In this document: positions 8,371 through 51,353 of the stretch, piece after piece
Numbering within the stretch: position 1 is the first letter of the stretch
Layout of the letters: every line of letters begins with the position of its first letter
Source: Chromera velia
Taxonomy: Eukaryota; Sar; Chromeraceae
Assembly (NCBI GenBank): GCA_018398765.1
Contig: JAHBMJ010003737.1
Location: 27,501-87,858, forward strand
Direction of reading: 5' to 3'
Length of the DNA stretch: 60,358 bases
Notes under the pieces: generated by a model
The model's database searches: none
Seen by the model: the letters and a program-made list of their open reading frames with translations, nothing else
Told to the model about the DNA's origin: nothing
Program-made: the position numbers and the translations under genes

Positions 8371-11300
8371 CACAGTTGAGACAAAATCTGCTCGACCATA
8401 TCAGCACACACACCCATGCAGAGCTGCTCCGGTGTCGAAGTGAAGCACCGAGACGACGGTCAAGACACACAGAGAGGCCGGTGAAGGAAATCAAGCGAAA
8501 CAAAATGCCCCCCCTCCACTGACCCATTGAAAACCAGGGACGTAGGAGAGGTCGGCGATGTGTCCGACGATGACCGTCACATGTGCCATGTACCCCATCA
8601 TACACGACTGAGAGAGCCTCCCTCTCTGTGCCTGTGGCTCGGTCTTGGCTCTCCTCAATGCCTCTGCAGTTCTGGTGAGGAACGACGTCCGTGTCAGCAG
8701 CTGCAGCAAGAGCGAACAACCTGGACCTGGTCCTTCCGATCGTCCCGCAGCAGAGGAAGACGACGAATCTGCAGATGGTTCGGGAAACACACCGCTCCCC
8801 CCTTGCATCTCCGCAACCGTCTCTGTCGTGCTGGTCGCTGGGAAGGCGTCTCCCTCTCCCTCTCCTCCTTCCTCCCTAGTGGCTGAAGAAGAAGACGACG
8901 AAGAGTCGATTTGAGGACCATTCTCTTTCTCTTTCTCTACAGCTGCCTCGGACCGGCTTTCTGTCTCATCTACGTTGCTCTCAATCGAAAGAGGAGGGGC
9001 TTCACCCACCCTCTCCCCTCCCCCCGCTTCTTCCCCCAAAGCACCACTGTCACCCTCTGGGTTGCTGGGCGGTGAGGACCCTTCTGCCCCTTCTGCCTCG
9101 TCTGTGAGGGGGGAATTCGGGAGCGCTTCTTCGTTTCCAGGGCCCCAATTTGCCCCCTCCTCCCCCCCTTCCCCCACCGGAAACCCTGTCTCTGGAGAGG
9201 GGGGGGACTGGATCTGGTTGGACAGGCGGGCGATCGTGATGATCTCCTCGCAGATGTCCCTGCATCATGTGTGAACAGAGAAAGAGAGAAAGAATCAAGA
9301 GACAGGGAGGGGGAAAAGTCGGAAGAGAAAGAAGAGTCAAATCGTTGAAGCAAGGAGCGGACGAACACATTGCAGCAAAGCGATGCGATGACGGACAAAA
9401 CAAAAAAAGTGCTGCGAGAGAGATGAAAGGGAATGAAGCTTTCAGAGTCATAGAAGAGAAGAGATACCTTCAAGTTTTGAAGTGCCCTGCCCTCGTACTT
9501 CCTTCCCATCAACACAACCTTTGATACTGACAGAAGGCAAATCTCATTCAACCGACCGACCGGAAGCAGTTGTGCAGCAGCGTGTTCCAGCTCTTCTCGA
9601 AGCAGGCGTCGACAAGAGCCGAGAGACAGCCCGACTCCTCCACCAGCCGAATGCAGTTCTGCAAGATTCATCATCCATGCATCGCACAGGTACAATACGA
9701 TTGCTTTCCCCTTGTTTCCTCCTTTCTGAGGAGACGAACGAATATGTCTCAATTTGGGAAAATACGGGCTCCTCGACACAAGAGGAGAGCGAGGACGAGG
9801 AAGGGGGGCGACCCTGAAACGAAACGAAATGAAACGAAACATCTCGAAAAGTGCCAACGCAGGAAACAAGTGTGTAAGGTCTACTTTAAATAGGAAGCAT
9901 GTGTTTGCAAATCGATCGATCGAAAGGCCATGCAGTGAAAGAGCAAAGGGGTCCGTCGAAGTCCGTCAGGCAGCGCGCAGCAAAGAGAAAAGAGAGGAAA
10001 AGCGTGGGTGAGTCAGTGAGAGAAACGGACCGGCCGATGTGACTTCAGGAGTTGAATGATCAAATACAAGATGTCAATCGACGAGCGTCCGACAGAAGCG
10101 ACTGGTCCTGCGCTTGTCGGCACTGCCAGTCCGTTCCGCAATCTCTCGGTCAACTTGTCAAAAACCGAGGGCAGGCACTTCCAAAGTTCGCTTTCGAGTT
10201 CGTCTATGTCCAAGTTCGGAGTGCGAAACATTGGAAACCCGTCTGATGCCACCCCCACACCCTGCACAATCCCCTGTTGACCTCCAGATGAATCGGCGGG
10301 CGCCCCCCCATCATTCTGTTCCTCTTCCCTCTCTTCCGGAATTGGAGCACAAGTGCCCCTACCCAGATTGCTTGTCGTCCCATCGATATTACACAGAAAA
10401 GCAGAACCTCCGCCAGACCCACCAGAGCCAGAGTCTCCTCCCCCTGAGGGAGCAGAGAAAGGATCTGATGGAGGGGATGGCTCTGCTGAGGGGATCGGGG
10501 AAGAGGAGGAACTGCTACCTGACTCGACTGGCTCGGAAGGTTCTGCTTGGGGTATCGGCGCGCTTGGTGACACATTGGCGGCCGGACTTGGAGAAGGGGA
10601 TGATGCCTCCTTCTCAACTTCCTCTTTCTCCAATTCCCCCCCCTCACCCGGCGCTGGACCTGCACCCCCTTCCTTTTCTTTTTCGGTGCCCTCATGTGCC
10701 GCCTGACTATCGGGAGACACAGCGGAGGAAGAGGAGGAAGCCTCTGCTTCCTCTCCTCCTCCTTCCGCTTCTACCTGAGAGCTCGAACCTTCTCCTCCCT
10801 CTCCTGTGTCTGCCTTCGGAGAGCAGGATTGAGTAGAAGCACATGGACGGTCTGCCTCCTCTTTCCCATCCTCATTCTCATTCTCCTCTCTTGATGCACT
10901 GCCCCCCTCTCCTTCCCTCTCACCCTCACCCTCAGGTTCGTCTTCTATCCCCATGTCAACAGGACCCCCAGAGGCTCCCTCTGCCTCTGCCCCCCCCTCC
11001 CCCCCAACCTCCTCCTTCCCTACCTCTACGATGACCCTCTCTGTAAAGTCTTCTACAGCCAGGGCTTCTGCCTCCGCAGCCGCCCGTGCTGCCCTCTCCC
11101 TGTCTCCAACCAGCGCACAAAGCAAAAGTTTCTGGAGAATCTCGACAGCGATGGCCACGGTCAGCTGATCCTGCACGAACAGACAGAGACGAAGAAAAAA
11201 GTGAGCGGGAAAGGAAAGAACCTTGAAAGATGGAACAAATCCAGATGCAAAGAATAGAGAGAAGAAAATAAGAAGAACGGAGATGAGAAGGGGAAACGGG

Positions 11301-11619
11301 TCGGTTCATACACGGAGAACGCAAGGAACAGAACAGAGACAAACGCTTCGGCATACACATATGCATGTTTCGAGAGTCTCTCTGCCGGCCCATTCACGGA
11401 AGTGAGTGAACCAAACAAACCCACCCACCAACTCATCAACCTACCCACCTCCGCGTGCATACAGTCAGCAAGTGCAGTGATCGTCCCTCTGTGTGCAAGC
11501 TGCGCAGAGAGCTCATTTGCGTAGCTGGGAGAGAGCTGGTCCCAGTGAACTGCAGGAAGTGAAGAGAAGAGAAGTGTACAGACGTGCAGGAAAGAAAGGG
11601 AGGCCAGCGACAACTATGA

Positions 11620-11664
<45 letters not shown>

Positions 11665-11856
11665 GTCCCAGAACACGAGAGGACGGAACCAACAACTTTG
11701 GAAGGCCAAGAAGCATGGAGGAAGGAATGGCAGGAGAAGGGCAAGACAAGCCATGGAATGCACGAGACAGAGATGCAGCCAGTCAGAAAGGGAATACTGC
11801 AGAAGGCAAACAGGCACTTCTTGCGCCCGGAGCCCCACACAAACATACACAGAAAA

Positions 11857-11890
<34 letters not shown>

Positions 11891-14800
11891 GAGGGAGAGA
11901 GTTCTCGACGTCCGAACGACACGGACGCACGCAATCCTCAAAACAAACAAAGAAACCAAGTCCCTCGAGAACTCACCCAGGAGCTCATGGACTAAGTGCT
12001 TCACGTTCTCAGCAAACTGCATGTAGAGAAGAGAACAGGAAGTTCATAAATACATGCACTGATGCATGTATCAACTGACGGACAAGGACAAAAGGCAGAA
12101 AGTGAACAAGGAAAAGCCGAGCGGATGGTTACACACACAGGCATCAGTTGCGACCGGTTGTCTGGAGAAGAAGGCTGTTCTCTGGGCTGAAGAAATGATG
12201 AACTGCAGAGGCAGCTTGGATGGATAAAAGAGAAGCAAACATCGAGAGCAAGATTCCATTCAGCTGAAATAAAAGAGAAAGAAACAACGAGAGCAAGATT
12301 CCATTCAGCTGAAATAAAATAGGAGCACACAACGAGAGCAAGATTCCATTCAGCCGATAGCCTACCTCTTCAGCCCCCAGAGCTGGGACGGGAGGAGGGT
12401 TCTCCCCTGAGGGACTTGTAGCGATAGAAGGGTCCTCTTCCACTTCCCCCCCCACATCGAGGGTCTCCTCACCATGAACCCCTCGGCCTTCCCACCCCCC
12501 CCCAGCCTCTTGTCCATTCACACCATCTCCTTCCTCCTCCTGGTCAGGATCGGGGTCTCCGATTTCATCTCCCGAGTCCTCCGTGTCACCTCCGCCTGTC
12601 TTGGCGCTCCGTATTGATGACGAGTCTGAGAGGTTGCCGTCCTCTCCTTCTCCTTCCACCTCCACTCCCTCTCTGTCCTCCCCTCTGTCGTCCTCACCCG
12701 CAGCAGCTGTAACACCTGCAGAGAGAGAAAGCAGAAAGAATATGGAGAGGCGAGAGAGAAAATAAGTATGTCGTGCACCCACAGAGCAGAGAAACGTCAA
12801 TCCCCCCTCGTCCGGACAGAACCTTGCGTGACACCCCATTGAAGCTCTTTCTTTTCGCTTGACAAAAAACTCGGAGGATGGAGTCGACGTGTTTGCCTTT
12901 TCCTGCTGCCCTTTTCCATTCCGATAGACTGAACTGCAGGAGCACCCTACTCCGCTCTCTCCGGACGTGCCCCCTAATTGTCCGTGTAGGAGACAGAGAG
13001 AAAGAGAGACAAACAGGGCAATTGGGGAGCGAGAAAGGAAGAAAAAGCGAGTAGACGGAAAGAATAAATGAAAGGACTCACCCGTCCCCTGCTCTTGCGC
13101 CTTTGTGGTTGTGTTGACCCCCGTCTCCGGATCTTTGTCGGGAGAGGAGGGACGAGGAGGGGATTCAGAGACGGCACCCTCCCCTGTCCCTTCTGCAGCA
13201 GCAGCACCCGTCTCTTCCCCTTGCTCCGCCTGCACCGTCTCGTTTCCATCTCCTGCAGAGACATTACCCTCTTTTGGCGGCTGTACAGGAGACGGGGACG
13301 GAGACGGAGAGGGCGGCCGAGATGACCGGGGTTGTGAGAGAGTCGTGCGTGGTCGTGAGTGCACATTGGGGGAATTTGCGTTTTCCTCTCCTTCTTTTCC
13401 TTCTCTTTCCCCTCTTTCAGGAGGCATACAGAAGATAGGGGGGGGCTCCAATTCTGCGCGTCTGATGTCCTGAACCAGTCGAGGAAAGAGGTTCAGCGTC
13501 TCCACAGGGAACGCCCCGGAGTCCGCCTCCCTCTCCATCAACAACAAACGGCACAAAACGTCTGCAAGAAAGAAGAAAGGAAAGGGAGGTTTCGATGAAG
13601 AAAGGGATCGAATCAGCTGCTGAAATGATGAATGAGCCTCCCTCCCTCCCGGCTGTTCTGTTCACACAAGAAGTCCGAGGAGGTCTTCCCCCCTCGATCC
13701 TTCCTTCCTCTCTTTTCCCTCCCTTCCTCTCTGAAAGAAAGCGGAGCGAAAGTGGCATGAAAAAAAAAGTGCCGCAGAAGGACTGAGGGAAAGATCTCAG
13801 AATCGGATGGAAAATAAAGACAGCCAATCTCTCTCGCAGGACTACATACAAGCCAAAAGAGCACCCTTTTTGAGTAATGAAAAAAACAACGACGCAAACG
13901 AACCCCCCAAAAGTGAAAGCGTGAAAAGAAGATTATGATGCACACATTCACACCCGTACGTCCGTGTTCACGTACCTGTAATGGACTTGCTGTAGAAGTG
14001 CTGCACAAATCTGTCCAACGACCTTCCCGTGCCCTCGTCTTTTGTCCTGAAGTACTCAACCACCTGTGACAGAACAGAAAAGAAGAAAAGAGAGAAGACG
14101 AGGAGGAAAAGAAGAAAATCAACTCGCTTTGCGACTCATGAAAAGAACAGAACTGCCCTCCCCGACACAAAACAAAAGATCTGGATGGAAGGAAGGAAAG
14201 CTGCGTCACAGCGAATGAAAACACGGAAGGAACAGACGAATGAGAGAGTCGACGCACACCCTTCCTCCCTCCCTCCCTCCCTCGCTCCCTGGATCCCTCC
14301 TCGTTGACTGACCGCCTGAGGTTCTCGTTGTATTAGACATGTGCAGACTCTACAGAAGTACCCAGACAAAACAGGGTTCAGCTGCAACGAGAAGGAAGGA
14401 ACAGTAGAGAGGAGAGAAGGGCATGATTGAGATACAATGAACGATGGCATGCATCTCAAAGAAAAAGGGGGGAGGAAAAAGAAAAAAAAAAAGAAACGAA
14501 AAGAAACAAAAGGAAGGGAGAAAGTTTCAGCGAGAGAGAGACAACGGACATCTCGAGCGGAACAGATGAAAGAAGCGACAGGTCTGCACAGAAGCCTGTT
14601 GTGTCAAAACGAGTGTGCCTCTTTCTCTCTCCCGCTGTGCATGTGCATGGAGACCCCGCACGTCTTCTGCCGGTCCTTCTGTCTGGTTTTGTCCCTGGGT
14701 CTGCACCTACATTGATTGCATGGCTTCGCCTGGATACATGCTATCCACATCCCCCCCCCTGTATGAGAAAGAGAGAGAGAGCCCCTTTCTGACCTTCTTG

Positions 14801-16230
14801 GGAGAGTCAAGAAATCCCCAGAGGAAGTCGAGGATGGCCTTGTTGGACTCCAGAAGGAGGGCGCTGCGTTCATGCGTTGGATTTGTTTGGGCAGAAAGGC
14901 AGAAGAGAGAGAACAGGGAGGGGAGGGTCGGTGTGGGGAGGTAGGGAGGGGGCCCGAAACTATTCTGCGGGCAACCGCGGAGGCGGAAAAGAACTGGACA
15001 CATACATTCACGTCGAAGAAAAAACTGAAAAGAGAGCGAACGTGAAGGGGCCCTCAAAAGACTGATCGAAGCATGAGACCCCGAACAACTCAACTCGCAA
15101 TGATTCTCTGAGAGCACCAGTATCCTTCCTTTTTTCAATCAGATCAGAGGGACGTGTTTCTTTCTGGCTCTCATTTTTCAAGCTTGAAGCGCAAGTCTGG
15201 GGAGGAAAGGGATCTCTCTTCCTCTGTTTCCTTGGAAGAACCCGGTACCGAAAGAGGAGGAGGATGTTCTGAGCAGCCGGCATAGAAACGATGCGTGCGG
15301 CCCTTTTAATTTTGCTCTCTCTTTATCTATCTATCTATCTATCTCAATGTTGGCATCCAAAGCACAGGCGAAGGAGCCAACAGACCAAGCCCTCAAATTC
15401 CATTCACGAACGCGATCTGAGTGAGATGATTGAGGTGAGACTGACTCGGTGATAGCGGTGTTTTCGGAGCATAGGAGGTCGGTAGCCACACTTGGAAACC
15501 TGCGGACAGACCACACAGCAAGCACGGAATGATCGTCTCGTCCCTTTGTTTCTTGCAAACCTTGATTCTCCCTCTCTCCCTCTCTCTCTCTTCCAAGTCT
15601 GCGAAGCGAGGTGCTCCCAGATGAACCCACAGATCGATATATACGAGCGAGTCTCTGGAGGGAGGAGCTCTACTGATCCCTTCACGCCAAGGAAAGCCGC
15701 ATGGAACGCCGCGCGCTCAATGTATACGAAGTGATCGAACGTCATCAAGAGTAGAAAGAGAGAGAGCCGAGCCGGGCGCTGAATAAGTGTGATTGGACCA
15801 TTGGGTCTGCATTGAATCGACGGACTGATCCACTGACTGACTGACTTGGTCGCCTTTGCGATGCTTCTTGGCGAAGCGTCCGGCTCGCACTCGGGCTCCG
15901 AAACAACGTACTCGACCAGCTTTCTCAATATCTCGGGGGTGCAGAGGCTGCATAGAGGGGAGAAAGTGGATAGCGGAGTTATCCAAAAGCAGAGAACGAA
16001 AGACAGAAGGCAAGATTGTCAGGAGAGTTTAAGCGAAGGTTGGCTCTCTTTTTTTCCACTTACAATTCTACCAGCCTCTTGTAGTTGGCCTTGACCTCCT
16101 GATGGACGCTGTCGGAGTCCAAAATCTCCTCCAGGTCCAGGCTCTCCTCTTTCATCATTCTCTCCTCAAGAGACGGCCCAGTGCTGGCCACTGCCCCATG
16201 GAAGGTGGCCCAGAACGTTCCCGCCATCAT
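4966..16230 (-). CDS. SAPS-domain protein, PP6/Sit4 phosphatase regulatory subunit
   Basis: SAPS proteins (yeast SAP, animal PPP6R) bind the Sit4/PP6 catalytic subunit and steer it to substrates. Fifteen exons on the minus strand: 16230-16064, 15947-15846, 15499-15446, 14863-14794, 14381-14313, 14063-13976, 13561-13082, 12715-12366, 12016-11977, 11549-11449, 11170-10031, 9658-9561, 9259-8524, 8194-8117, 7812-4966. They sum to 6420 nt (2139 aa) with the frame kept at every junction. Family signatures in order: MAGTFW at the N-terminus; FPSVATDLLCSEN; LNPVLSGYFCRVC (residues 132-144); CFEKSWNTLLHN (W911); GYMAHV (1142). The order and the Trp-Asn-Leu-His block match the SAPS fold. Long Ser/Glu/Gly-rich insertions sit in exons 7, 8, 11 and 13, and residues 1192-2139 are a Pro/Ser-rich, apparently disordered tail in one exon. 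Animal homologues are about 800-950 aa. The start was chosen by the family's Met-Phe-Trp-like N-terminus. The donor of exon 11 (GTCCGT) is the weakest junction. Confidence 0.9.
8041..8072. repeat. (TTTC)n microsatellite in SAPS intron 14
   Basis: About eight TTTC units lie within the intron between SAPS exons 14 and 15. Confidence 0.9.
8335..8372. repeat. (CAGT)n microsatellite in SAPS intron 13
   Basis: Tetranucleotide CAGT repeats with one interruption. The unit is the same word as the GTCAGT donor used by exon 13 about 150 bases away. Confidence 0.9.
11625..11655. repeat. (GA)n microsatellite in SAPS intron 9
   Basis: A near-perfect GA run in the intron between SAPS exons 9 and 10. Confidence 0.9.
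11858..11889. repeat. (CA)n microsatellite in SAPS intron 9
   Basis: A perfect CA run in the same intron as the GA tract. Confidence 0.9.
12243..12357 (-). repeat. 45-bp tandem repeat at the start of SAPS intron 8
   Basis: Two full copies and one partial copy of a 45-bp unit begin at 12243, 12288 and 12333. The array lies directly after the exon-8 donor on the minus strand. Because 45 is a multiple of three and the exon-8 frame stays open, read-through would add a hydrophobic 15-residue repeat with the core LNGILLSL. Confidence 0.9.
15323..15344. repeat. (TATC)n microsatellite in SAPS intron 3
   Basis: Short run of TATC units between exons 3 and 4 of the SAPS gene. Confidence 0.85.
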
Positions 16231-17218: not shown

Positions 17219-19659
17219 ATGAGCGATCCGGAGGGACTCATTTGCTGCTTCAGTTGCCTTTCAGTCTTCCCATGTAAGTCCGTCCTTCCATCTTTCTTTC
17301 AGCGTCTTTCGATGTAAACGCATCTTCGGAGCTCCACACACTTCGTAACCGACCAGCAGCCCTTATCCACAGATCCACGCAGTACTACAAACTAATGACT
17401 TCCTTCTCTCCTTCTTCCTTTCTCGCGCTGTACCTGCAGGCATTCGGAATGCGCTGGTCCGCAAGATCGCCTTCCGGCCCCCTGCCAAGTCTGGGTACTC
17501 GGTCTCTCAAGATGGACAGTTCAGACACCTGAACTCGTACGGAACCTACACGGCCCCTTCCCCCGTTCCTGGATGTCCGTCGGCCTGGTTGTTGCTGTCA
17601 GCTCGTTAGACATCAAAGAGCGTGACGGTGGCTTGTTCCCTCCCCTCTTTTCTTCTGCCCAGTTGGTTCAACAATCTTTCATCCGACAGTGAGTCCCTCG
17701 CTGTCTGGTCTAATAGGAAGAAGTGCCGGGCCTGCTCCTACTGTTGCCATTGGTTTATTCTTTCGCTTCTTTGCTGGCTGTGCCTTGGTCCTTCCTGACA
17801 TTTCATTTCCTTTAAATTCTTTTCTCTTAATTCTCCTGTGTTCCCTGCATGTCTGCAGTGTCGTGGGAGTTGATCGAGCTGGAAGACGGCTGGGGACAGA
17901 CGATCAACGCGCTGTACATTCAGAACGCGAGCAATGTGACGGGGTCGGTCAGTCATGGAGAGTGAGTGCATGAGGTCCAAAGGAGGGATGGAAAGAAGGA
18001 AAGGAAACACGATCGACAGAAAGGGAAGGAGGGAGGAAGGGGACGCTTTCTTCTATGTACTGAAGCAGGACGAGGAAGAAAACAGGAACGTTAAATCAAC
18101 GTCACGAACACAACAGAACAGAAGTGGTAACATACGAGCACAACAAAACAAACGATTCCAGGCGGACGAATAGGTAATGTTCCTCCGTACTTTGGTAGCG
18201 TAGCCGGGAGAGAACAGGAAGAGGAAGATCAGGGAGGAAGAAAAGAAGGGAAAGTCTCACGGTCACCTATGTTCGGTTGTGTTCCATTTGCTGTTTTTCT
18301 TTTGATGGGTTCAATTCAACCTTTTGAAATGATTGCAGGATGACGGTCATGCACTTCCACGGCAACTCAACGTCAGTCTCCCGTCTTCTTTTTGAACTTG
18401 AGGGGCAAGACGGGACAGAACAGGACACCTACAGAGAGAGCGGATGATGAATGGATTTGGCAGCCGTGTGTCTCCCTCGCTATGCGTGATATCATGCCGT
18501 ATTTGGTTGGCGTATCCTTCTCTCAGCATGCAGCAAAGATTGTGTTTGTTTCTGTATCTACCCTGTTCTTTCCTCCCGATTTGACCTGCCTGCACGTGTT
18601 GACGTCGTGCCGCCTGAGTGTGGGGGGAAGCACTGGATGGGGTTCCCTTATTTTGTCGCCTCTCGGCAACCTTTGTGTTCTCCTTGAAGATTCCCTTTCT
18701 CCCCTCTTCCTGCCTGCCTTCATGTCCTTCACCGGTTTCATATTTTCTTCTTTGTTCTTCCTTTTCTCCTTCCACCATTCCTTCATTGATGGATCCTTGT
18801 CTTGTCTCGGTGTATGTATCTGCATGTTTGCTTTCAGGGACATCGGGTACAGCTTTGCGCAGATGAGGGCGTACGCACAAGAGATTGGGTGCAACGTGAT
18901 TCAGCTGGAGTATCCTGGTTGGTCGGTCGGTCGGTCGGTCGGTTTGGTCCGAGACCGAAGTTTTGAAGAGTGGGGAGTGATGCCAAGAGAGACTTCACGC
19001 AAGGGAGGGGGAGAGCTTGTCAATCTATCTGAAAGAGCAGTGAGTGACATCTGAAGGGCTTTTGTTTCTTCTTCAAAGAGAACGCCGATCGATCGATCGA
19101 TCGACTTCCTCCTCCCTCCACGTCTGTGTCTGTCTTGTTCTTTTTTCCTTGTGAGTGATTCAAATCGAATCGAATATGCAGGGTATGGAATGTGCAACGG
19201 TACGCCTGGTGAGGGTTCGATCACGAAGGCAGCCAGGAGCCTCTACGACTACCTTGTGCAGACCTGCCGCATTCCCTCTGGAAGGATTGTCCTGCACGGA
19301 GTCTCCATCGGTAGGGCCAGCAGCAGGCATCAGAAAGGAGGGAAGGAAGGATCATATTTCTCTCTGCGTGTTTGCGTTCATGTCCAAGGAGTTGCGTGGA
19401 GAGTAGTCTCTCTCTTTGAAGGGATTTCAATTAATGAAAAGGACATCGAAGTGTGAGGAGACACATGGTTCTGGCGTTATCTCCGTGTTTCTCTCGGCCC
19501 TATTGAAGCTTTCTATACCTCTACTTTTGTTTTTTTTTGCCTGTCTCCCTGTCTGATTCTGAGCTCAGTCATGCATGCATGCAGGATCCGTCTGTGCCTG
19601 TGACCTGGCGTCTCGGGTCCCTGTCGCAGGTCTGCATGTCTCTTCCCTCCTATTCCCTC

Positions 19660-19732
<73 letters not shown>

Positions 19733-20531
19733 CACAGAGGCTGACCGTCTCCTTCTCTTAGGCAGGCCAGGTCGAGGCAGACACTCTTTCCCTTTCGCTG
19801 CCAGTCTTCTTTGGGATATGCACTCATGCAGGGATCTTGCCTCTGTTTCTCCCTGGGCGGTTGCACTGCGTCAGGCTGGTTCTCTCTCGACTGTGCATGG
19901 GACTGAGTGAAGGTCTCCTCTCGAGGCCATTAATTTTCTTTTCTCCTTGCCTTGATTCCTTTGTGAGGATTCTTTTTTACATTCCTCCCTTCGACCTCCT
20001 TCTCCTCTCTTTTTTTCTGTATTCGGTTGGTTCTAATTGCCGTCTCTCTCTCTCTCTCTCTCTCTGTTGTTTCTGATTGTCGTCTCTCTCTCTCTCTCTC
20101 TCTCTCTTTTCTGGCCATGCACCATGCATCTTTCTCTTCCCCCCCTCACTGCATGCCTTCAGGTGTGATCCTCCAGTCAGGTCTCCGGTCCGGTCTCTCT
20201 CTTGTCAGAAAGGTCAGCACGCTGTATGCAGGGTGTCTGTCCGTCTGTATTTTATTTGCTTTGCGTCTGAGAGCCAGTGAGGCTGCTCAGCCAGCCAGCC
20301 AGCCAGCCAGCCACAGCCGAAAGAAGTCTCTGTCAGGGGCGCCAAAGCGAACAAACATGAAAGGAGACGAGGAGAGAACGAGAGAAGGAAAGAAGAGCGA
20401 AAGGAAGGGAACCAGTGGCGGTAGTTCTTTAGGAGAAAAGCCGAGCACCAGACTGCTGGGAGACGCCACTCTCTTTCCTGTTTGTCGGACATGAACCCCT
20501 ATGAGGACGCCTTGTTGTGTACATATAGGTC

Positions 20532-20574
<43 letters not shown>

Positions 20575-21259
20575 TGTGTGTGCGTGTATTTGATACTGAT
20601 GATTCTGGATGAGAATGAAATCATGAATTGACGGGAGCTCTGTTGCAGGATGCCAACCACGACAGTTGTGCGGACATCTTTCGCAATGCGCATAAGCTTA
20701 GCTCGGTGAGTCGACAGCTCCCCGTTTGGCACCTTTCTTCGGCTTTCTTCCTTGCTAGCTGTATTGCTCGTGCATCCTTTTTCTTTCACTGTTTCTGCAT
20801 ATGTTCCAAAGAAGAAACTGCACGGAGGAGATGAATGAATCTGTCTGTCCTGGCTGAAGAGGGCCGAAGACAAGATTTGTTTTTTTGTCCCCCCCCATTC
20901 TTTTTTTTGGTTGTATGTCTTCTTTCTTCTGGCTTCGTTGCGACTGATATATCTCTCATTGCTGTGATTTCCTTTTTGGTTCGCATAGAATATCTGTCTC
21001 TCCTCGCTCTGTGTTTGTCATCCCCCTCTCCCCCCCCCAGGTGAACTGCCCCGTTTTCGTCATCCACGGGAAACTTGACCAGCAGATCACCGTCAGGCAC
21101 GGCCAGGTGAGCAGAGGGGAGGCGTGGGGAAGGATTAAAGGGAGGGAACGGGCGTGGAAACGGCAGTTTGGGGGTCCTCTTTGCTTACACGGGGGTAAAA
21201 GAGAAAAAAAAAAACTCATGTAGAGGAGAGAGGGAAGGATGACGAACATTTTCAATCGG

Positions 21260-21293
<34 letters not shown>

Positions 21294-21477
21294 CTCTCTG
21301 TCTTTCTCTGCCTGCCTCTCGTTCTTTGTCCTTCTCCTTTTTCACCCCTTTGTTCTCAAAAGAAGGGAGGGAGGGCCAGGGAAGAACAACAAAAAGAGGT
21401 CGAATAGCTCAACATCCCCTCTTCTTTGTAATCTCTTCAGGAGTGAAAGCAGTGAGGTTGTTTTCGTCTGAGGGTTC

Positions 21478-21508
<31 letters not shown>

Positions 21509-22637
21509 TGAATGTGTGTGCAGGGTCTCTACGAAGCCGCCCCCAACAAGTATCCTGCCTGGTCTGTTCTCTTCTTTGTGTGTGCATGGATTACCTTTCC
21601 CTTCTCTCTGTGTGTTGATTTACCAACGAATGACGCCGTCTCCCTCCTGAAAGGCGCAGCTTCAGTCAACGTTCTGTCCAATCAAACAGGGGGTCCATCG
21701 AGGACTTACGCGTCCCTCCCTGTCTTCTTTTCACTCACTCCTCTTTGAGCCTTTCTGCCCTCTCTCTTCCCCTAGCTCCTGCTCTTCCATCCCTTGCAGC
21801 AGTTGGCATGCCGCGTCAAACAGACTTGTCAGCTGTCTGTATCTCTCATATGCGGGAACCTACGGTAGACATGCACACACTCAAGTTCCTACGCAGACAG
21901 ACGCTTCTGTTTCGAGAGAAGTGCACTCGCCAATGCATCTCGATTCTTTTTTTGATGATGAAATAAAAGCGACTCACTGATAGAGAGTGTGGGTGCCTGA
22001 CGCACGCAGGTGGGTGCCCGACGCTGGGCACAACGACATTGAGGTCGGTTGCATGTCTCCCTTCTCTCCTTTCCCCTCACTCTGTCGCTCCCTTGTGTCC
22101 TTTTTCCGCTGACCTGCCGATTTCGGTGCTTGGACGGACACTTGTATGTTCACGTTTATCCAACTCTTTGGTTTCCATATGTCTGAATTACCCAGTTTGC
22201 GGTTTCTTTTTCTTTTTGTCCTTTTTGCGTGGGCGCCGAGAGCCGACCAGCCAGCTGCAAAGATGGGAGGGAAGTTTGATTGATTGAGTGCACGTTGTGT
22301 TGTGTTCATTGCAGATGAAGCACAGGCACATGTTCGCGACGAAGGTGAAGGAATTCCTTGTGTTCGTCGGGGGAGGGGGGGGAGGGGGGTTTGTGGCCTC
22401 CGGCGTGTTCTCCGCTCTCTCGCGTTCAACCCCGGCGGCGTTCTTCGGTGGAGGTGGAGGGCTGAACTACTCACACGCGTCGCTGGGGGGGAACCAGGCA
22501 CTCGCAAAGAGCGCTTACGCACCCCTGGTCCCTTACGGAGGGTGAGTGAGTGAGTCAGGGAGGGAAGAATCCATCTGTGTCTTTTCTGTCCCTTGGTTCT
22601 CTTCTCAAATTGGCGCCCCACAGCGCGCGCGCGCACA

Positions 22638-37157: not shown

Positions 37158-37290
37158 TGTAAGAAGGAATGATTACAGAGAGGGATCTTTGCCCTCATTT
37201 GGGTGCAAGCGAGAAGAGATGCAGATAAGGATTTTTGCCCGTCATCGTGTATAAGAAGAAACTTTAAGGAATGCAGAGGGATAAAGCGCG
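37158..37290. repeat. Satellite family C, remnant
   Basis: GAAGGAATGATTACAGAGAG-type units resume after the inverted-repeat element and fade out by about 37290. Confidence 0.7.
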
Positions 37291-38668: not shown

Positions 38669-38804
38669 TGTCCATTCGCTTTCACCGACTGTTTCACAGA
38701 TGGTCTTTCAGATTCTCTTCTCTTACTGCTCTTGTTGATAAGTTGCTGTTGCGTTTGTTGGAATGTATATGAATGTATCTTTCTTGCTGAAATATTGTTT
38801 GGCA
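38669..38804. repeat. LTR-like direct repeat, right copy
   Basis: Same orientation as the left copy. It starts TGTCCATTC and ends TTTGGCA. Sequence outside the pair is unrelated. Confidence 0.85.
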
Positions 38805-41800: not shown

Positions 41801-42194
41801 CTAACAGCCGGGTTGTGTATATGAATAAAAAAATCGTATGGACAGAATGTGATGCATTTCATACACTGCCAGACAGAATGTTAGTATACTTCTAGGTGCA
41901 TAGTCCTTAAAGTTACTGTTCTTGAGTGATTCGTGACGGGCAGTGACGGGGAAAAAAGATGAAAAAAGGTTTGCTCGTGCCATGCGCATGCGTGTGTTTC
42001 CAGCCGGCCTTTGCGTGGGAGTCTGCCTAGGAGTCTGCAAAATCCGACCCGAGTCGCTGAAGTCTTCTTGTCCCTGGAGCTCAGAGCTCTCCTATATACG
42101 GCGCTGCTGTCACTGCACCATAAGAGCTTTACTCGTTAGTGAGTAATCACCTGCACAAGCCATGCACCACCTATACGCAGAGACGCCTCCTCGC
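38805..42194. other. AT-rich intergenic DNA
   Basis: No supported gene. A Pro/Ser-rich open stretch at 38941-39258 has no partner exon. The CA-type microsatellite lies at 40258-40545. From 41000 to 41790 the DNA is AT-rich with many CTAG words. The 3' end of the polymerase eta gene lies at the right edge. Confidence 0.55.
40258..40545. repeat. (CA)n / (ACAT)n microsatellite, about 290 bp
   Basis: Long, imperfect run of CA and ACACAT units; the Cys/Val- or Thr/His-rich open frames over it are by-products of the repeat. Confidence 0.95.
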
Positions 42195-45100
42195 TCAATC
42201 ACGCTGTGTCTGCACAGATGTGCTCCCATCCCATAGGGTCAGCTGCCGCTTTCCGGTACCCCTCGCGTGCCCTCTGCCCTGCTGTCTGACCGTTGTTCCA
42301 CCTGCTCCCCTGGATCCGGCTTTACCTACCCTGCCTCCCCCCTCTTGCCTCTTTCTCTCTGCTGTTGCAGATGCCACCCCTCTACCTGCATGAGGGGCAG
42401 GGGGTCTGTTGCTGAAGGCCTTTGGGGCTCCGTCAAGGGCTCGTGCATGTACGGAGTCAAAATGTTTCTGCAGCTGGTTCAGTGGAAACTGGAAGCTGCA
42501 AAGTGGGCACTGCTCCTTTGTAGAAGAAGAAGGATTTGTCTGGACAACCCGAGGACGTTTTATGACACGGTCACAAGGCCTGTCTCCATCTGTGCGCTCA
42601 CGACCGGAGGCGGACCCCGCAGCAAATTCTCCAACAATAGCGACGTCCTCGTCTGACTCTTTTTCGTCTGGCTCTGTCTTTGTCTCTGTCTCCTCAATTC
42701 GTCCAGGGATTGAGCCCCCCTGTGAGTTGTCTACTTTGTGTTTCGACTGATGGTTGGGATTAACGGAGCCAGTCTTCATCAGCTTGCCTTCTTCTCCTCC
42801 TCTTTTTTGGGGAGGAGAGCCGGTACTTTGTTCCCCCAGATTTCGTCTCTTCAAGTTGACCTTTCGTGCCGTCAGTTGAAGAGGGGGGAACACCCCTGAG
42901 GTGGGGGGAGAGAGGAGAGACCTTGAGCCAGCCAGAGCGCTAGCCTCTGATACACATAGAGGAGGGGCTTTTGGGAGAGAATCATCAAGTGCTTCATCTT
43001 TTTCTGCTTCTCTTCTACTTGCCCCCCTTGCTTTTTTGTCGGGCTGTTCATCTTGGCTCTCCAGATGCTCTACTGGATGAGAGACTGCAGCACTCGCATT
43101 TCCTGCTGGCAAGCGCTGAAAGAACGTTCGGATGTCCTTCCCTCCGACATTCCCTTTTCCCTGAGCAGGAAAACCTGTGGCCCCAACAACCAAACGCGTT
43201 ACACCCGTCCCCACCTCTACCGTCCTGTTCTTGGCCTCACTGGCCGAGTGGCCTGGCTGTTCCAGTCGCGTTGTATCAAAGGCTGGGGGCGTGTGTTGGG
43301 AAATGAGCCTGACGACCTGGGCAGAGAGGTCACGCAGGGCTTTGGAATGCCGAGAAGAGGAACAGTGGTTGTCGGCCCCCGTCTTTCGAGGTCCCTCTTG
43401 GAGGATTCTCTTACCGTCCGCTTCCTCGTTCTTCCCTCCGCTGGTTGAATATGTCGAAGGAGAATCTGAATCTGCTGCGGGCGACGGTGCCGTTGTGAGG
43501 GGCAGGCAAGATGAGGAAGAGGAGGAAGAAGAGGAAGACAAAGGCTTCCGAGTCGTCTCCAAGGAGCCCCCAGATGCGGAGAGGAGACTTGTCACTGACT
43601 GCGGAAAGTCTGCCGCTGCAGCTCTGCAGAAAGGAGGAGAGAGATAGATACACACGAGTTGGAAACAAGAGCTCCGGTAGTCATTGAATGACCAAGTCTC
43701 TGTCTCTCCGTCGAGCAATCTACGAGTTCACCTTCGTATCTATCTGTCCACTTGTCTATCTGTGCATCTCCTGCCAATTTGTCTCTCCGTCTGACTATGA
43801 ATCACCTTGTCAGTCTATTTATTCATCTGCTTCTGTGTCTGTCAGTCAGTCTGTCTGTGTCTGTCATTCTGTCAGTCTATACATACTATCTTCCAGCAAC
43901 TGTGTCCATGCAGCTCTTTCCATCTGGCCGTCCATCCATCTTATCTAACTGTGTCTCTCTCTGTCTGTCTATCTGCCGATTTTTCCGCCCGTCAGCCTCT
44001 CATGCAACGTAGATGTACATCTGTGCTATCATCTGCCTGCAGAGTCTGTGAACCGTCAAGCCTCAACTGACTTTGTCCCCGCTGGCATGCCCATTTTGTT
44101 TTGGGAGTAGCCGTCCCTCCACCTCACTACCTGCACAGGGAAGGGGGCGGCGAAAAGGGAAGAAGCATGTTTTCCAGAAATGGTGATGGGTCTTCTCAGT
44201 CCCCCTCATTGCAAAAATCGACGTTCTACAGGAGAGAAAAATCTCAAGGGGGGCATGTCGGGAGACAGGATGAGGTGATGTAAAGGGACGGACGATCAAG
44301 TCGGACAGCATGCCAAACGAAGCATCCAGAGATGAAAAAAGCTCAGTCGGTAGCAGAGTGGACCGTCGACAGGCAGAGGGACACAAAGATAAGTCCGACC
44401 AATTCAGCAGCCATGAATTCAAATTAGTTCGAATTCTTCACTCACTCATTCATTCCCAACGTGGCACAATCATTCACCGAGCAGCTCAGCCACTCACTCA
44501 CTCACTCACTCACTAACTGGCGAATGGACCGACTGGCTGACTGACTGACCCACCCACCCGCTGACCGACTGACCACACGTCGAGGCACCTCTCCCGGTCT
44601 CTCCTCCAGCAGCCTTCGAAGAAGCTCCGCAGATAGTTTCTCTGACCAACTGAATACACAGTTTCACAACAGGCAGGGAAGATAGAAGGGGAACACATTC
44701 CTCCATCCATCCATCCATTCATCCATCCATCCAATACTTCTCCACCCGTCTTCGATTTTTACTCAAATCACCCGCTCTGTTCCTGGTTTTTTCACAAAGT
44801 CATCTGTCCTTCCATTCTTTGTCTCACTCTGTCAACTTCCAAAGCATCCATTCATACTTCACAAACCCACCCATCCTTTCGGTCTCTGCATTCCTCTCTT
44901 GAACGGAAGCTGTGGTCGCTGTCCCAAACGGAAAGAGAGTTCGGGAAAGGAGTTTCTGTCTGTCTGCCTGCCTGCCTGCCTTTCTCCTTACACTCAGAAG
45001 ACTGCTGAGAAGGTCTGCCCACCTGAAGAGCTCTGCGTGTCCCGAGAGGGGACAAAAGGAGCGCTCAGCGATCATCGTCTTCGGCGCTCCCCTCTCTGTC

Positions 45101-45412
45101 ACCCCCCTCCCGTCCCTTCCCCAGCAGATCTGCGACAGACGAGAGGAAGACGCGAAGGAATGCGGCAGAGTAGAGAGGAACTCAATCCAGCGTACCGATC
45201 CGTAAGGGCCCTCGCAGTTGCCAGCGTACTTGTTGGAAAGGTCGGAGCCATGAACAGAAAGAGAAGAGGCAAGCCAGTCACCCATTCCATGAAGTCACTC
45301 AAGAACAAACGAAACACACTTATAACACGGCTCCATTCCCCCGCTTCCTCTCACAGACGGAAAGGGAGGTAAAGAAGCAGGAGGGGACAGACAGACAGAC
45401 AGACAGACAGTC

Positions 45413-45492
<80 letters not shown>

Positions 45493-48206
45493 CTCCGAGA
45501 GCCAAGACCCTCTCGCCTTCCCGAAATGCTGGAAGAGGAGGGAGACGGGGACACACCGCAAGTCCACCAGAGAGGGCAGGGGTCTCCTCTCTTCGTCTTT
45601 TCCCTTCACTCCGGCTGTCCTCTTCTCTTCACTCTCATTGCTAGCTCGTCTTCGAGACCCCATCGCTTCCCTCTCGTCCTGTCCCCACGGATTTCCTGTC
45701 GAGGTCCACTCCTGCTGAAAGGCCAGGGGGGGAGAACGCACCGGGAGGGTATCTCGGAGAAGAACAACACACGTCATCTGAAAAGCACGGCAGCCTCTGA
45801 ACAAGGTGCAAAACGGTTACCGACTGATTGTCATAAACATACGCTGGAACTCACGGGATGAGACACAGAGAGGCGAGCAGACAGAATGCCTGCTTGGGCT
45901 CGCAAGACAGCAGAGAGTGACAGAGGACGAAAATTTTGGAAGTTGGTACACGGGCAGGCAGAGGGCGCGAAGACGAGCAGGTCGAAAGGGGAATCGAAAG
46001 CCAATGACAGGAAAAGAAGAATATGCGAACACCAACTGCGTTGAGTAAGGCAGCTGGCTGACGTCACAATTCACGTCCTCTGTTCTGATTTCGTCTGTGA
46101 AGAAAACATTTACCTCTCCGTCCTCTCCGGTGCCTTCTTCCTCTTTCTCTGCATCCCATCTTGCCTCGTCATCCTCTCCCTCTCCCTCTCCCTCCGAATC
46201 CCCTCCTTCATCTCCACAGAAGCCAAACCGAAACGACGGGGAGGAATCAAAACAGATTCCTCCGTCGGCATACCCACCCTGCAAGCATCCCCTCCCCCCA
46301 TTCTGTGCCGATTCAACTCCGCCCTCCTCTGCCCTTGTCATGAGCCTCATATGCGAGATGACCAGCTTCTCGAGTTGTGCCCCCATTTCCCCTCTGCACG
46401 CGTTTTTTCGTTGATTCGATCGACCGCTCAATCATGCAGGCAGGCAGGAGGGCAAAGAAGGGAAGCGTTAGAACGCGGGAGCCGGTACCAGGGGAAAGGT
46501 GTGGGAGAGAGGGAGTTCTGTCTGGAGGCAGACTCGATCTACCGAGCGAAGGCTTTTTCTTTAGTTCCTTTCCAATCTGACAGCATCTGTCGTCTATCTG
46601 TTTCTATTTTCGAACATCAGACACATAACGGAGTGGGGCACAGGGAACAAGAATACAGAGCGCCAAAGATACATACACACACACACACACAGACACACAC
46701 ACACACACGCGCGCGCGCGCGCGCGCACTGACCGAAGCAAGGGCACCTCTCGAAGAGGAGAAGCTCTCAAGAAAGACTCCAAAGCCCCCACTGCATCCAC
46801 CGCACTGCCCGCCCTGCTGCCGGGATCACTCGAAAGAACAAGCGTGCCCCCGTCAGGTTTCGTCAAGGGAGACGCCAATCGTGCAAGGAGCCGGTTGGGG
46901 GCAAGAGAGGCACTGCAGGTGACCCCCCCCACCTTCCGAATGGACGCTCTGATGTCCTTCAGAAGGGAGAGAAGGGTCTCTATCTCCTGCAGAGGCCGCG
47001 TGCAGAGGGGGCGTCATTGTTTCCTCTGTTTGCATCATCTGAGCATGCATCTCATGCAAGAAGGCAGAGGTGTTGTTTGCCATCTGCAGCTGTTCCTGGG
47101 GGCGGGAAGGAAGAGGAAAAGGAAAAGGAAAATGGCGTCCCTGGGCACAAACAGAGAGGACATGAGGTAGAGACTGCTCGATGGAGTTCGTGCCAGAACG
47201 TCCTTGCAGCACTCACCTCTCTCTCTTCTGACTGTGTCTCGTCCAAGTGTCGGAGAACGCTGTGGGCTGGTACTAGGCCGAATCCTTCTCGGTCTCTGTC
47301 CCTGTCTCTGTCTGAACCAATGCCTTCTGTTCCTCCTGAGTTGGTGTCGAGGTTCTCGTCCTCATTTGCCCTCCATTCAGTCTTCACTGCACACTCCCTC
47401 TCTTGAAGATTTCCAGTATTTCGCGAGTGGCTGACTTGCATGGACGAAGAGAAAAAGAACTCCCGTCCCACAACAACACGGAGATTGCACAGTGCAGAGT
47501 CACAAACACCTTTGATCGTCTCCCCTCCCCTTTGTCTCTGCCCCATCCCTCTCCCTCTCCCTCTCCGCCCCCCCTCCAATCTCCTTGCAACTTCATCTTT
47601 CAAATCCACGTAAAAGTCATCCACTGATGCACGCTCAACCTGCGAACGGGGGAATGCGGTCTTCAGCGCTTCCTCCAATCTTGACGTCACCTTTCTGTAG
47701 AAGGGCATGTCCATCTCAAGCACCTGCAGCCCCGGGCACTGCTGTCTTGCCGCAGGGAGAGAGAGCCTCTTGCTGAGGAACTCTATAGCCGCCCTGCCCC
47801 CCTCACCCGCCCCATCTCCTTTTCTGATCCCCTTCGCACGAGCCTCCAGCGACACGGCCACAAAGCCACCTGCAGAGAAGACAACGGTACGACAGGTGCT
47901 TGACGAAACAACAACCCCACGTTGCGTCACACCATGCATGAGAGTTGCAGTGCGATGGTCTGCACCTCGGAAGAGTGCCGAATTCAAGAACGCAACCGGC
48001 ACATCCGACCAGCGACACGTACGCAATGCCACACCAAGAGAACGTACAGCGTGACTCAGAGAGACCTGCAAAGTTCTCCACCAGCCAGAAATTGGCTCAC
48101 CTCTGTTATGCTGCGACACTGCGACGGGCTTTCCTTTCAGCTGCGGGTTCCTCAGACACTCCGCCTGGACGTAGAAAGCGTCAATGTCGATATGGGCAAT
48201 CGTCAT
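42195..48206 (-). CDS. POLH: DNA polymerase eta (Y-family translesion polymerase)
   Basis: Pol eta copies past UV lesions at stalled forks. Nine exons: 48206-48101, 47869-47217, 46986-46733, 46393-46114, 45714-45493, 45129-44992, 44639-44574, 44130-44072, 43623-42195; total 3207 nt (1068 aa), in frame throughout. Family blocks in order: HIDIDAFYVQ (metal ligand D7); FVAVSLEARAKGI; ERASVDDFYVDL (residues 114-125), where the usual SIDE has Asp120 in place of Glu; TCSASLAPNRLLARLASP; thumb RGEMGAQLEKL; FQHFGKARGSWLSEICWGRD; GAPKTMIAERSF; then little-finger blocks ending TRLVVGATGF. Exon 9 adds a PIP-like GGKDIRTFF (near 753-761), a UBZ-type zinc finger (C965, C968, H980, H985) and a second Q-L-T-L-W motif near the end. 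An acidic insertion splits the thumb. The exon 7 acceptor is the weakest junction. The gene is head to head with the methyltransferase. Confidence 0.91.
45385..45492. repeat. (ACAG)n microsatellite touching a polymerase eta donor
   Basis: About 25 ACAG units. On the minus (sense) strand this is (GTCT)n and its first unit is the intron 5 donor itself. Confidence 0.95.
46673..46726. repeat. (CA)n(CG)n microsatellite in polymerase eta intron 3
   Basis: CA units pass into a perfect CG run that ends at the intron 3 donor on the minus strand. Confidence 0.95.
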
Positions 48207-48951
48207 CCTGCAGTGTAGCTGAATGGGCGAAAGTAGAAAAGGTTCGACCCAGAGAGCGACTTCGAATTACTGGACGCTTGAGTCTGGATCGATACCGAGA
48301 AGAAGCGATTTTCCGACTCGTATACACATGCAGCCGTCGAGCAGAAGCTTTCTCAGCGAATGGAGATGAATCGAAGAGCTTGCCCGTCTCCTCAAATCAA
48401 AAAGCCCAGCCCAAAAGCCGCACTTCTTGGTCAGCACAGGGTCCTGTCTTGAGATCCTAATACTTCAGCGGGACCCTTCTGCAGTGGAACTGCGCGGTTT
48501 GATGAAAGGGGCGGCCGCTCTTTGCGAGTTCAAAAGCGGGCTTCGTCTCGTCGGTCTATATAAGTTGAGGGAAGAGCCTCTCCGCTCCCTCTCTATTTTT
48601 TAGCTCGGACGCCGTCTCCAAATCGCCTGAATTAGGATGAATTAGGAGACGGCTGTGCGTGCATGCATGCATGATCCACGTGCATGTGATCTACAGCAAA
48701 GTCTCCTTAGCTGCCCGGCTTCTCACCATGTTCCTATCCCACACATTCGATCGAAGCCTGTTGCACAAGCCTCGTCGCTCCGCAAGAGGGAGTAAGAAGC
48801 GGCTCAGAAGTCCCCCAGAATCGGGTGTGGAAAACAGATCATGAGAAGTCGCTGCAGTGTTTCGTCGAGTGCTCACAAGCAGTGCACTGTTTGTTGAAGT
48901 CTGACAGTCAGTCACAATCGAACTTCAAATCTGAAAGCAGAAATTCTCTCA
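48207..48951. promoter_or_regulatory. Divergent promoter region, polymerase eta and methyltransferase
   Basis: About 745 bases separate the two start codons. A TATA-like TCTATATAAG lies at about 48555, oriented toward the methyltransferase. A GC-rich GGGGCGGCCGC patch lies at about 48508 and a TGCATGCA octamer at about 48660. The assignment of any site is inference. Confidence 0.4.
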
Positions 48952-51353
48952 ATGGGCAGTAGAGGTTCTGCTCGGAGTTTTTTCCGCACGCCTCTTGGGG
49001 CCTCTGCGCTGGGTGTGGGTGTGGGGTGCTTTCTAGGCAGTCTCCGGATGACCTTTGCGAAGGAAGGCAAGCCAGCAAAGTGTGAAGGAGAAGGAGAGTG
49101 GACTGCTTATCCCGAACAGCGAAAGCCGAGAAGGCTGTCTATCACCGAGAGGCTTTTCCACAAAGTCGAAAAATTCCGATTCAAGATTGCATTTGACCGT
49201 GTTGGGTCAGAGTCTCTGGAGACGATTAACAATTGTGGGTACAGATATCTGCCCAGTGGGGTCACCAAAGCAGAGGCAACTGCGCAGGGAAAGGAAGAGG
49301 ACCCCGCCCTCTCACTTGCAGGTGCGCCGGTTGGAGAGAAGAAGAATCGCGTGATTGCGAGTGACCTGCTCGACGACGGAGAAATCGGAAAATCCAAACA
49401 GTTCATCGACCCGTGCCCCCCCCCCGACTTGGACGCCATGTTCCCATTTGCAAAGGTTCGTGTGCATGTGCATGGACGGGTTAGGAGAGGAGGTAGGGGT
49501 GTGAGGGAGACGAGGAAAGTGATCGTGAAGGGAGACAGTGAGAGGCAGCAGAGCAGACGGAAGCGAAGGGGGAAAGAGAAGGACAGAATGAGGAAGTCGG
49601 AGGGAGGGCGAGGCGCGCGGGGAGGGGGGGCGGAGAGTCAGATAAGGGACAATCAGAAAGGGTAGGAGAAGCGAGCACGAGGAGGAGGGTCACTGACAAA
49701 CACAGAGCTGGAGAGCAAGGCGAAACCGGACAGGATTGGAGGAAGAAACGATCAAGAAGAGGGGAGGGTGGGAATGCTTTTGGAAATGGCAGAGAAAACA
49801 CGCAGCAACTCTGCATGGAGAGGTGTACAGAACCTGGTGGAATGAAGAGAAAATTGAAGAGAGACGAGCGAAGCAGGCAACGTGAGCGTGAGACTCACGA
49901 ACAAAGGAGAGGCGAAAAAGCAGCAAGGAAGGGATCAGGTGAAGCATAAGTTTGTGAAGGTGCGACCAAGTGGGAGAAAGAAACGGAAGAGACAATGAAG
50001 AAGAAGTAAAAACTTTCCTTCCTTTTCTGCAGAATGAAGTACACGCACAGGCATGCGCTCGCGCTCGCGTACAGAGAGAGAAGGGGGGGCGAAAGAGGAA
50101 ATGAAAGAGAGATAGAGGAGCGCATGCAGATAGCAAGGAAACGAAAAGGAGGAACGAAGAGATTGCGAGAAAAATGCCCTTTCTGTCATTTCTGGTTCTC
50201 TTTCTTTCCTTGCAGAACACCCGAGCAGGTGCCGCCCTCTACCACCACATTTGCACAACAGGCTTCATGGGAGAGAGACAAAATTTGGTCAAAGGGAAGA
50301 GGGTGCTGGACGTCGGATGCTACTTGGGAGGGGGTGCTCACTACATTGCGGAGAGTCTGGGGGCTTCTGAGGTGGTGGCCATTGATTTCCTTCCTTCAAC
50401 AATTGACCAGTGTCACCAGATCTATTCAAAGGAGCCTCTGGACAAGAACAAAGCGGAAGAGAAGGAAGAAGGAATTGAGTGGAATCCAGACAAGATGCAG
50501 ACCCTCCGAGATGAGAGACGGGTGTACTCTCCCAAAACGAAATTTCTCTTGGCGGACGCGCTGACGCTCCACGAAATATTTCCTCCAAAGAGTTTCGACG
50601 TCATTGTTTGTATCGACACTGTGAAGAGCTTTGCAAGCATACCTCTGTTCTTGGAGGTATGTCCTGTCCTGTCTTATCAGACTCACTTGTTTCTTGATGG
50701 GAAAGAAATGAATGATACAGGCGAAACGTTCTTTATGGTTGAGAATCTTCCGGAGGGCCAAGGAAGCTCTTTCGGTCTTGCTCTGTGTTGTGATAAAAGC
50801 GATCAAAAGATCACATTTGAAGGATCGAGTTTCTCATTCGCTCTCCCGTCCTCACGATTGTCTTTTTTTCAATCACTCCGGGTTCGTTCCTTTATTTTTT
50901 CTCTTCTCCCTTTCATCTGCTACCACTTCTCTTTCAACTATTTGGTTGTATTCAGAAGATAACTGCGAGCAACAACCAAAGAAAACTCAGACCAGTTACT
51001 TCTTCTAAAAGGCGACACCCTCCTCACAATTTCTTTTCCGTAAGAACCAAACGGGTCACATTGTATACTCTATGCCATGTTCTTTTTTTCCTCTGCAGAT
51101 CTGTCGCTACCTTTTGAAGGACGACGGTCTGCTTCTCCTCTCCGATATGCTGGGAGGAGAGAAGGTGCAGCAGGTCCACTTTTTCATGGAACGGCAGTTC
51201 AGGAACGCAGGCTTCGACGTGGCTGTGGCAGGGGACCTCTCGGCAGGCGTCAGACTTGCTCACTGGGAACGGTTTCAGCGTCCGTACCCGTACACAGGCT
51301 TCCATACGGCGCACTACGTCGCACTGAAAGCGCCAGAACTACCTCAAGAATGA
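48952..51353 (+). CDS. Class I SAM-dependent methyltransferase, substrate unknown
   Basis: Three exons, 48952-49455, 50216-50656 and 51099-51353, give 399 aa in one frame. The nucleotide-binding motif I is VLDVGCYLGGG (residues 198-208), followed by VVAIDFLP and, later, a motif IV-like FDVIVCIDTVK and LLLLSDMLGG, the usual class I Rossmann order. The N-terminus (FFRTPLGASALGVGVGCFLG) has a short hydrophobic stretch after basic residues, which could be a mitochondrial or plastid presequence or a membrane anchor. Residues 40-170 are a helper region I do not recognise. The small-molecule-type MTase fold is clear; substrate cannot be told. The third exon ends in PELPQE. The gene is divergent from polymerase eta. 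Confidence 0.83.

Follow-up and report, generated by a model that had tools for sequence, protein, structure and literature searches.

Introns in a 60,358-nucleotide stretch of the Chromera velia genome (C3438:27501-87858, contig JAHBMJ010003737.1; the whole stretch is called the window here) and in further loci of the same genome started with GTNNG donors that had C at the third intron position (+3) in more than half of the cases. Moreover, the donor extended as a (GTNN)n tendency to about +18, with copying of the first unit included, and this period-4 continuation of the donor was new here. The initial annotation of the window had described GTNNG donors with C at +3 in about half of 39 cases, and this description was borne out in our sample: C was found at +3 in 57 of 103 introns (55%, confidence interval 45-65%), G in 24, A in 13, and T in 9, and G was found at +5 in 102. 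The share of C, 55% in a 20-gene sample, was thus far above the genome-wide level of 10% below which that claim was to be dropped. Although the U1 and U6 small nuclear RNAs (snRNAs) appeared ordinary, these observations suggested that the start of an intron was chosen under different rules in this alga.

The 39 donors of the initial annotation were unlisted; we rebuilt the introns independently, and the figure of 19 in 39 was not matched donor by donor. The genome sampled comprised 177.8 Mb in 4040 contigs. Proteins were aligned to DNA with a spliced aligner that was indifferent to the bases from +3 to +8 and accepted introns starting with GT or GC and ending with AG; for the window and the HSP60 loci, introns were made more costly and an acceptor profile was added. 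Two measures were recorded per intron, namely the similarity of the eight flanking residues at either end and the fall in score after its donor had been barred. A strict rule (8 or more for each flank and for the score drop, a GT donor, and no N near the start) retained 103 GT-AG introns out of 169 candidates, 10 of them in the window and 93 elsewhere, with termini other than GT/GC-AG being invisible to the aligner. These introns came from CCT1-8 (57 kept of 78 candidates), the window (10 of 26), HSP60 (2 of 4), the HSP90 family (18 of 36), and V-ATPase B, ATP synthase alpha, and LUC7 (16 of 25), so the whole sample represented 20 genes rather than a genome tally. Two GC candidates of the CCT set were omitted without the score-drop test, and no GC candidate beyond that set passed the strict rule. 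Conclusions were drawn from the counts of homology-aligned introns only. An artefact of model building was rejected because, of 64 CCT introns tested (from 78 candidates), 57 lost at least 8 in score when the donor was forbidden, and among these 57 survivors C was still present at +3 in 31.

The preference for C was seen in each part of the sample (31 of 57 CCT introns, 5 of 10 window introns, and 21 of 36 others). A purine occupied +3 in only 37 of the 103 donors, as opposed to the usual eukaryotic majority, which is a typical and not an obligatory feature; the available text of PMC1779574 describes a strong preference for A or G at this position in standard donors. The remaining consensus consisted of G at -1 (92/103), A (57), G (29), C (11), or T (6) at +4, and T at +6 (76/103). 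Ab initio models of the remaining fetched chaperonin loci gave 11 more introns, 7 with C and 4 with G at +3, which were left uncounted. As a separate observation, two similar HSP90 genes (L046 and L047), with about 70% identity to the human reference in each case, had two introns at matching places; +3 was identical within each intron pair (T/T and C/C) and later bases differed.

The initial annotation had overlooked that C already followed GT in about 30% of cases in this genome, so the fitting contrast was 55% versus 31%. As background we used 260 kb of the window and fetched loci, both strands, minus candidate donors and period-2 and period-4 runs. Here C followed GT in 30.5% of cases, and GTNNG had C at +3 in 31.8%, G in 32.4%, A in 14.3%, and T in 21.4%. 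Relative to this background, GTNNG donors were enriched 1.7-fold for C, and A, G, and T stood at 0.89, 0.73, and 0.41 times expectation (chi-square over four bases, p 5e-6). Within GTNAG, where background C reached 39%, C at +3 was still enriched 1.65-fold (p 0.0016). GTCAG was the most favoured type, with 36 donors observed versus 8.2 expected (4.4-fold); next, named by their +3 and +4 bases, came AG (6 vs 2.8), AA (6 vs 3.1), GG (10 vs 6.8), and GA (11 vs 7.6). Additive log2 effects relative to T were 1.8 for C, 0.39 for A, and -0.04 for G at +3, and 4.0 for A, 3.4 for G, and 1.75 for C at +4. Because the background possibly contained unannotated donors, these contrasts were conservative. 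Thus, the sample had a genuine preference for C and no preference for a purine at +3, and base composition alone was insufficient as its cause.

The copy numbers of snRNAs and genes obtained by the genome search were lower bounds. At least five U1 copies were found, and the sole complete one (L001 on contig C723; 79.3 bits, above the Rfam cut-off) started with AAACUUACCUGG and thus contained the normal ACUUACCUG. The four other copies lacked the 3' part or both ends, and the base opposite +3 was U in all three that retained it. Therefore, a variant U1 RNA was unsupported, as was an altered U6 pairing box, since ACAGAG was present in 7 of the 7 U6 copies found (ACAGAGA in six and ACAGAGU in L009). 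The initial annotation had proposed that U1 pairing leaned on +5 and +6 or that the U1 RNA or its protein partners differed; the first part agreed with the near-constant G at +5 and the frequent T at +6, and a changed U1 RNA was unsupported, given the normal 5' end of the only complete gene found. With regard to proteins, the genome encoded SNRNP27K (SNRNP27 match of 87 bits, with the stretch RQYMNRKGGFN, RKYRQYMNRKGGFNRELDK), a candidate METTL16 ortholog with two Methyltransf_10 exon matches at one locus, and at least one LUC7 locus (one found). The partial U1 copies (L002, L003, L050, and L051) were scattered in the genome and resembled retro-pseudogenes.

The canonical U1 5' end and the ACAGAG box of U6 agreed with a probable assignment of these introns to the major class. 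U12-type introns were rejected since GTATCC or ATATCC donors occurred in 0 of 103 introns, with AT donors barred by the aligner. Introner elements were also rejected: only 34 of 5253 intron pairs had hits (E <=1e-3), none of them full length, the longest (70 bp) lying close to an intron end made up of a (GT)n run, and comparison of the first with the last 20-odd bases revealed terminal inverted repeats of at least 8 nt in 0 of 103 introns. Introner homology was thus not the cause of the period-4 tail. At the other end, the 103 introns of the 20 genes had an extended 3' splice site, with C at -3 in 103 of 103 and TGCAG in 76 of 103, although the acceptor profile may have favoured CAG or TGCAG in the 12 window and HSP60 introns.

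The tail was seen as phased GT dinucleotides downstream of the donor: among the 103 introns, G was found at +9 in 64, at +13 in 54, and at +17 in 50, and T at +10 in 52, at +14 in 51, and at +18 in 47. The variable bases were copied at the same spacing. At a lag of four, +3 equalled +7 in 48 introns (35.3 expected, P 0.002) and +4 equalled +8 in 42 (25.8 expected, P 0.0002), and both matched jointly in 26 of 103 versus 9.9 by permutation (maximum 21 of 10,000). Matches at lags of 8 and 12 were also above chance (+3 and +11, P 0.007; +4 and +12, P 0.04; +3 and +15, P 0.0002); of nine comparisons at lags of 3, 5, 6, and 7, a single one was significant (P 0.04). The excess persisted relative to background sites that shared the first six bases (n=102), with G at +9 in 64 vs 33.5 and at +13 in 54 vs 35.2 and unit copies in 26 vs 13.9 (P <=0.001 in each case), as well as G at +17 in 50 vs 35.4. 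Extreme examples were (GTCA)5 in CCT3 and (GTCG)4 and (GTCC)3 in ATP synthase alpha. An early control had suggested that the tail was mere background; this was set aside after larger seed-matched controls, in which the excess lay in phase and short copies and not in long exact runs. Tetranucleotide repeats in general were abundant in the window and loci (182 runs of at least 12 nt in 184 kb), with ACAG (39) and AAAG (34) leading.

The explanation that we favoured, and to which we gave about an even chance, was that these were major-class introns whose donors were paired by U1 around +3, that C was kept there for pairing with a G of U6, and that slippage copied the unit. Such a donor would need G at -1, GT, a purine at +4 (A best), and a near-invariant G at +5; T would be usual at +6, and C would be favoured at +3. 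A U1 with a normal end would then pair via -1, +1, +2, +4, +5, and +6 and tolerate the mismatched C opposite its nucleotide 6; in more than half of the donors, +3 would stay outside the U1 helix. After transfer to U6, +3 would face the G of ACAGAG (human G44), with which only C could form a Watson-Crick pair, and this C:G pair would strengthen the helix between U6 and the 5' splice site, hence the retention of C. In the portions of PMC9803359 and PMC11732430 available to us, +3 is placed opposite U6 G44, and this position, usually A or G, is described as contacting G44 weakly early and more stably in the Bact complex. The presence of METTL16-like and SNRNP27K genes was in line with the favoured A and the scarce T at +4 (6/103), and the avoidance of T would fit a methylated U6 A43. 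Finally, GTNNGT, fixed by selection, would seed replication slippage, so that the first unit would be copied downstream as (GTNN)n and would then decay. The copying of units was observed as covariation, and slippage is the cause that we infer for it.

A number of results weighed against this explanation. The enrichments of the 16 dinucleotides at +3 and +4 tracked U1 pairing (Spearman 0.63, p 0.008), and their correlation with a simple U6 pairing score was -0.33 (p 0.21); such a score by itself did not account for the frequencies of the 16 types. C at +3 was an exception to the U1 trend, and T at +3 or +4 gained nothing; this exception was what an extra U6 benefit of C would resemble, but protein preference or mutation supply may also account for it. 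At their other positions, donors with C at +3 had 4.21 U1 pairs vs 3.95, a nonsignificant gain (p 0.11), and positions -1, -2, and -3 were alike in +3 C and +3 purine donors. Therefore, a trade-off at +3 was unproven, and the published trade-off between U5 and U6 was unseen on the exon side of these donors. Additionally, a smaller share of C-class donors had G at +4 (8/57 vs 16/37, p 0.003, uncorrected for base context). As for slippage, the match between +4 and +16 was not beyond chance (P 0.18). In an earlier collection of 72 donors, for which the window rules were looser, exact period-4 runs of at least 8 after GTCAGT were found in 6 of 19 donors vs 23 of 99 sites elsewhere (p 0.56), and runs of at least 9 in 6 of 19 vs 11 of 99 (p 0.03), a weak excess; in the early control, the share of GTNNGT sites with runs of at least 8 was 33% at donors and 29% at internal first copies. 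Moreover, G at +9 exceeded simple copying, and some tail positions may be selected.

The strongest competitor was relaxed constraint combined with mutation, which we considered possible but less probable than retention of C for U6. Here +3 would be near-neutral, GTC would be common, slippage of (GTCN)n would rewrite the first unit, and the machinery would merely tolerate C. Such a process would agree with the high background of C after GT (30-32%, and 39% in GTNAG), with the lack of enrichment of A and G at +3, and with the covariation between +3/+4 and +7/+8. Against it stood the 1.7-fold excess of C over the GTNNG background, the 1.65-fold excess within GTNAG, and the 4.4-fold excess of GTCAG; in this comparison, background sites in period-2 and period-4 runs of at least 10 nt were excluded and donors in runs were kept. 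A bolder form of the U6 reading was more doubtful still: with normal snRNAs, donor choice would be led by U6, GTCAGT would trade one U1 pair for a C:G pair with U6 G44, commitment would occur at the handover from U1 to U6, and the slippage-fed (GTNN)n would provide tandem registers at most introns.

Since the pairing parts of U1 and U6 were unchanged, an altered preference would need proteins or modifications. Accordingly, a variant of a U1 snRNP protein (U1C or LUC7) or of Prp8 could favour easy release of U1 through a preference for C or for a weak U1 helix at +3. The finding of one LUC7 locus, a lower bound, was compatible with this idea, yet no protein change was seen in a search that did not extend to U1C and U1-70K, SNRNP27K retained RQYMNRKGGFN, and we regarded the idea as unlikely. 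We gave even less weight to a functional tail, in which GTNN repeats would draw snRNPs to the vicinity of the exon edge by offering several U1 and U6 registers, while the exonic G at -1 sets the cut. G at +9, +13, and +17 was indeed above the six-base-matched background, and at +9 it exceeded copying at other unit positions; however, the covariation of NN between units was the expectation under slippage, and resemblance to the first unit fell with distance.

Four spliced genes lay inside 8524..51098 of the window, the range of the initial annotation. These were a PPP6R/SAPS-like gene (about 8-16 kb, minus strand) and an ABHD17-like hydrolase gene (about 17.4-22.3 kb, plus strand), both named from our own reading and alignments and not from a family search, a pol-eta-like Y-family polymerase gene (about 45-48.4 kb, minus strand), and a methyltransferase-like gene (about 49-51.4 kb, plus strand). 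The polymerase had phmmer matches in PDB to Y-family polymerases, pol iota being the best, and its "eta" label was again from our own reading and alignments and not from a family search; the methyltransferase had phmmer matches to phosphoethanolamine methyltransferases. Homology provided 26 candidate introns in the first three genes, and the 10 strict ones had C at +3 in 5, A in 2, G in 2, and T in 1, with G at +5 in all 10. When pol eta and PPP6R were aligned without the acceptor model, many of the resulting introns were spurious. Ab initio models were made as well: the first run fused the window into giant genes, and a harsher run, whose finder had +5 but neither +3 nor +4 among its training positions, still linked unrelated exons and included false ones. 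Between 8.4 and 51.2 kb the harsher run gave 30 introns (+3 C 12, G 8, T 7, and A 3; +5 G 28/30), of which 13 had both exons at 8 or more (+3 C 5, T 4, A 2, and G 2).

In the ABHD17-like gene (plus strand), strict introns were found at 18372..18837 (donor GTCAGT, +3 C), 18918..19181 (GTTGGTCGGTCGGTCG, with a period-4 tail), 19311..19584 (GTAGGG), 20213..20648 (GTCAGC, +3 C; the first ab initio run used other donors nearby), 20706..21040 (GTGAGT), and 21107..21523 (GTGAGC). Two more homology introns with +3 C were uncounted, namely 19630..20162 (GTCTGC), with a drop of 7.89, below 8, and 21562..22009 (GTCTGT), with a weak left flank. The PPP6R/SAPS-like gene (minus strand) had strict introns at 15948..16063 (GTAAGT) and 14382..14793 (GTCAGA, +3 C; the ab initio model had the same donor and a different acceptor). 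Its introns at 15500..15845 (GTCAGTCAGTCAGT, +3 C with a repeat tail; weak left flank, also found ab initio) and 14064..14312 (GTCAGT, +3 C; drop 6.9, missing from the ab initio model) were homology introns left uncounted, and 8195..8523 (GTCAGT, +3 C) was an ab initio intron only and fitted the start of the annotated range. In the pol-eta-like gene (minus strand), the introns at 46394..46732 (GTCAGT, +3 C) and 45130..45492 ((GTCT)n, +3 C with a repeat tail; drop 8.69) passed the strict rule in a weak alignment (112/332 identical). The donors of the methyltransferase-like gene at 49456 and 50657 came from ab initio runs only; the intron at 50657..51098 (plus strand, GTATGT) fitted the end of the annotated range. 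Beyond these genes, positions 53400-59600 contained retrotransposon-like frames, with a copia-like gag/pol stretch and a LINE-like reverse transcriptase, as judged by eye from open reading frames. Elsewhere in the genome, LHC genes marked a photosynthetic alga, and 58 Chloroa_b-bind matches indicated a large LHC family; two LHC exons matched the long LHC chains of 9vfj best in PDB, and several LHC units may be fused.

The purine at +3 is usually ascribed to U1 pairing, so a genome with a normal U1 that favours C parts the demands of U1 and U6 on a single base. It can be considered as a natural test of whether U1 or U6 commits the donor. Judging from the period-4 tail, splice signals may themselves seed microsatellites, which bears on the evolution of donors. 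For gene prediction, donor models from species with a +3 purine would score more than half of the sites here poorly.

Neither the +3 C nor the period-4 donor pattern was named in the titles or abstract openings of the open-licence PMC papers among the matches listed, and the following comparisons refer to the parts of the cited papers available to us. Introner elements of Amoebophrya (PMC7789003) also give unusual intron ends in a protist genome; here, in contrast, there was no family sequence, no 8-nt terminal inverted repeat, and all 103 introns were GT-AG. In Saccharomycotina (PMC10581693), the 5' splice site preference likewise shifted with the pairing parts of U1 and U6 unchanged, but that shift was from A to U at +4 and occurred in intron-poor yeasts together with the loss of METTL16 and SNRNP27K, whereas here it affected +3 in an intron-rich alga with both kinds of genes. 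The donors shared features with the U6-class 5' splice sites in the two-class model (Parker et al., PMC9803359; review PMC11732430), as they had G at +5, favoured A at +4, METTL16-like and SNRNP27K genes, and +3 facing the U6 G. They differed from it in that +3 is usually A or G according to the review, and in that the exon side did not distinguish +3 C from +3 purine donors. Finally, tandem 5' splice sites of the GYNGYN type and other short-distance donors (PMC1779574, PMC2423196) also have overlapping GT units at the intron start; here, however, the units were 4 nt apart and formed a tendency that reached about +18 across the sampled genes.

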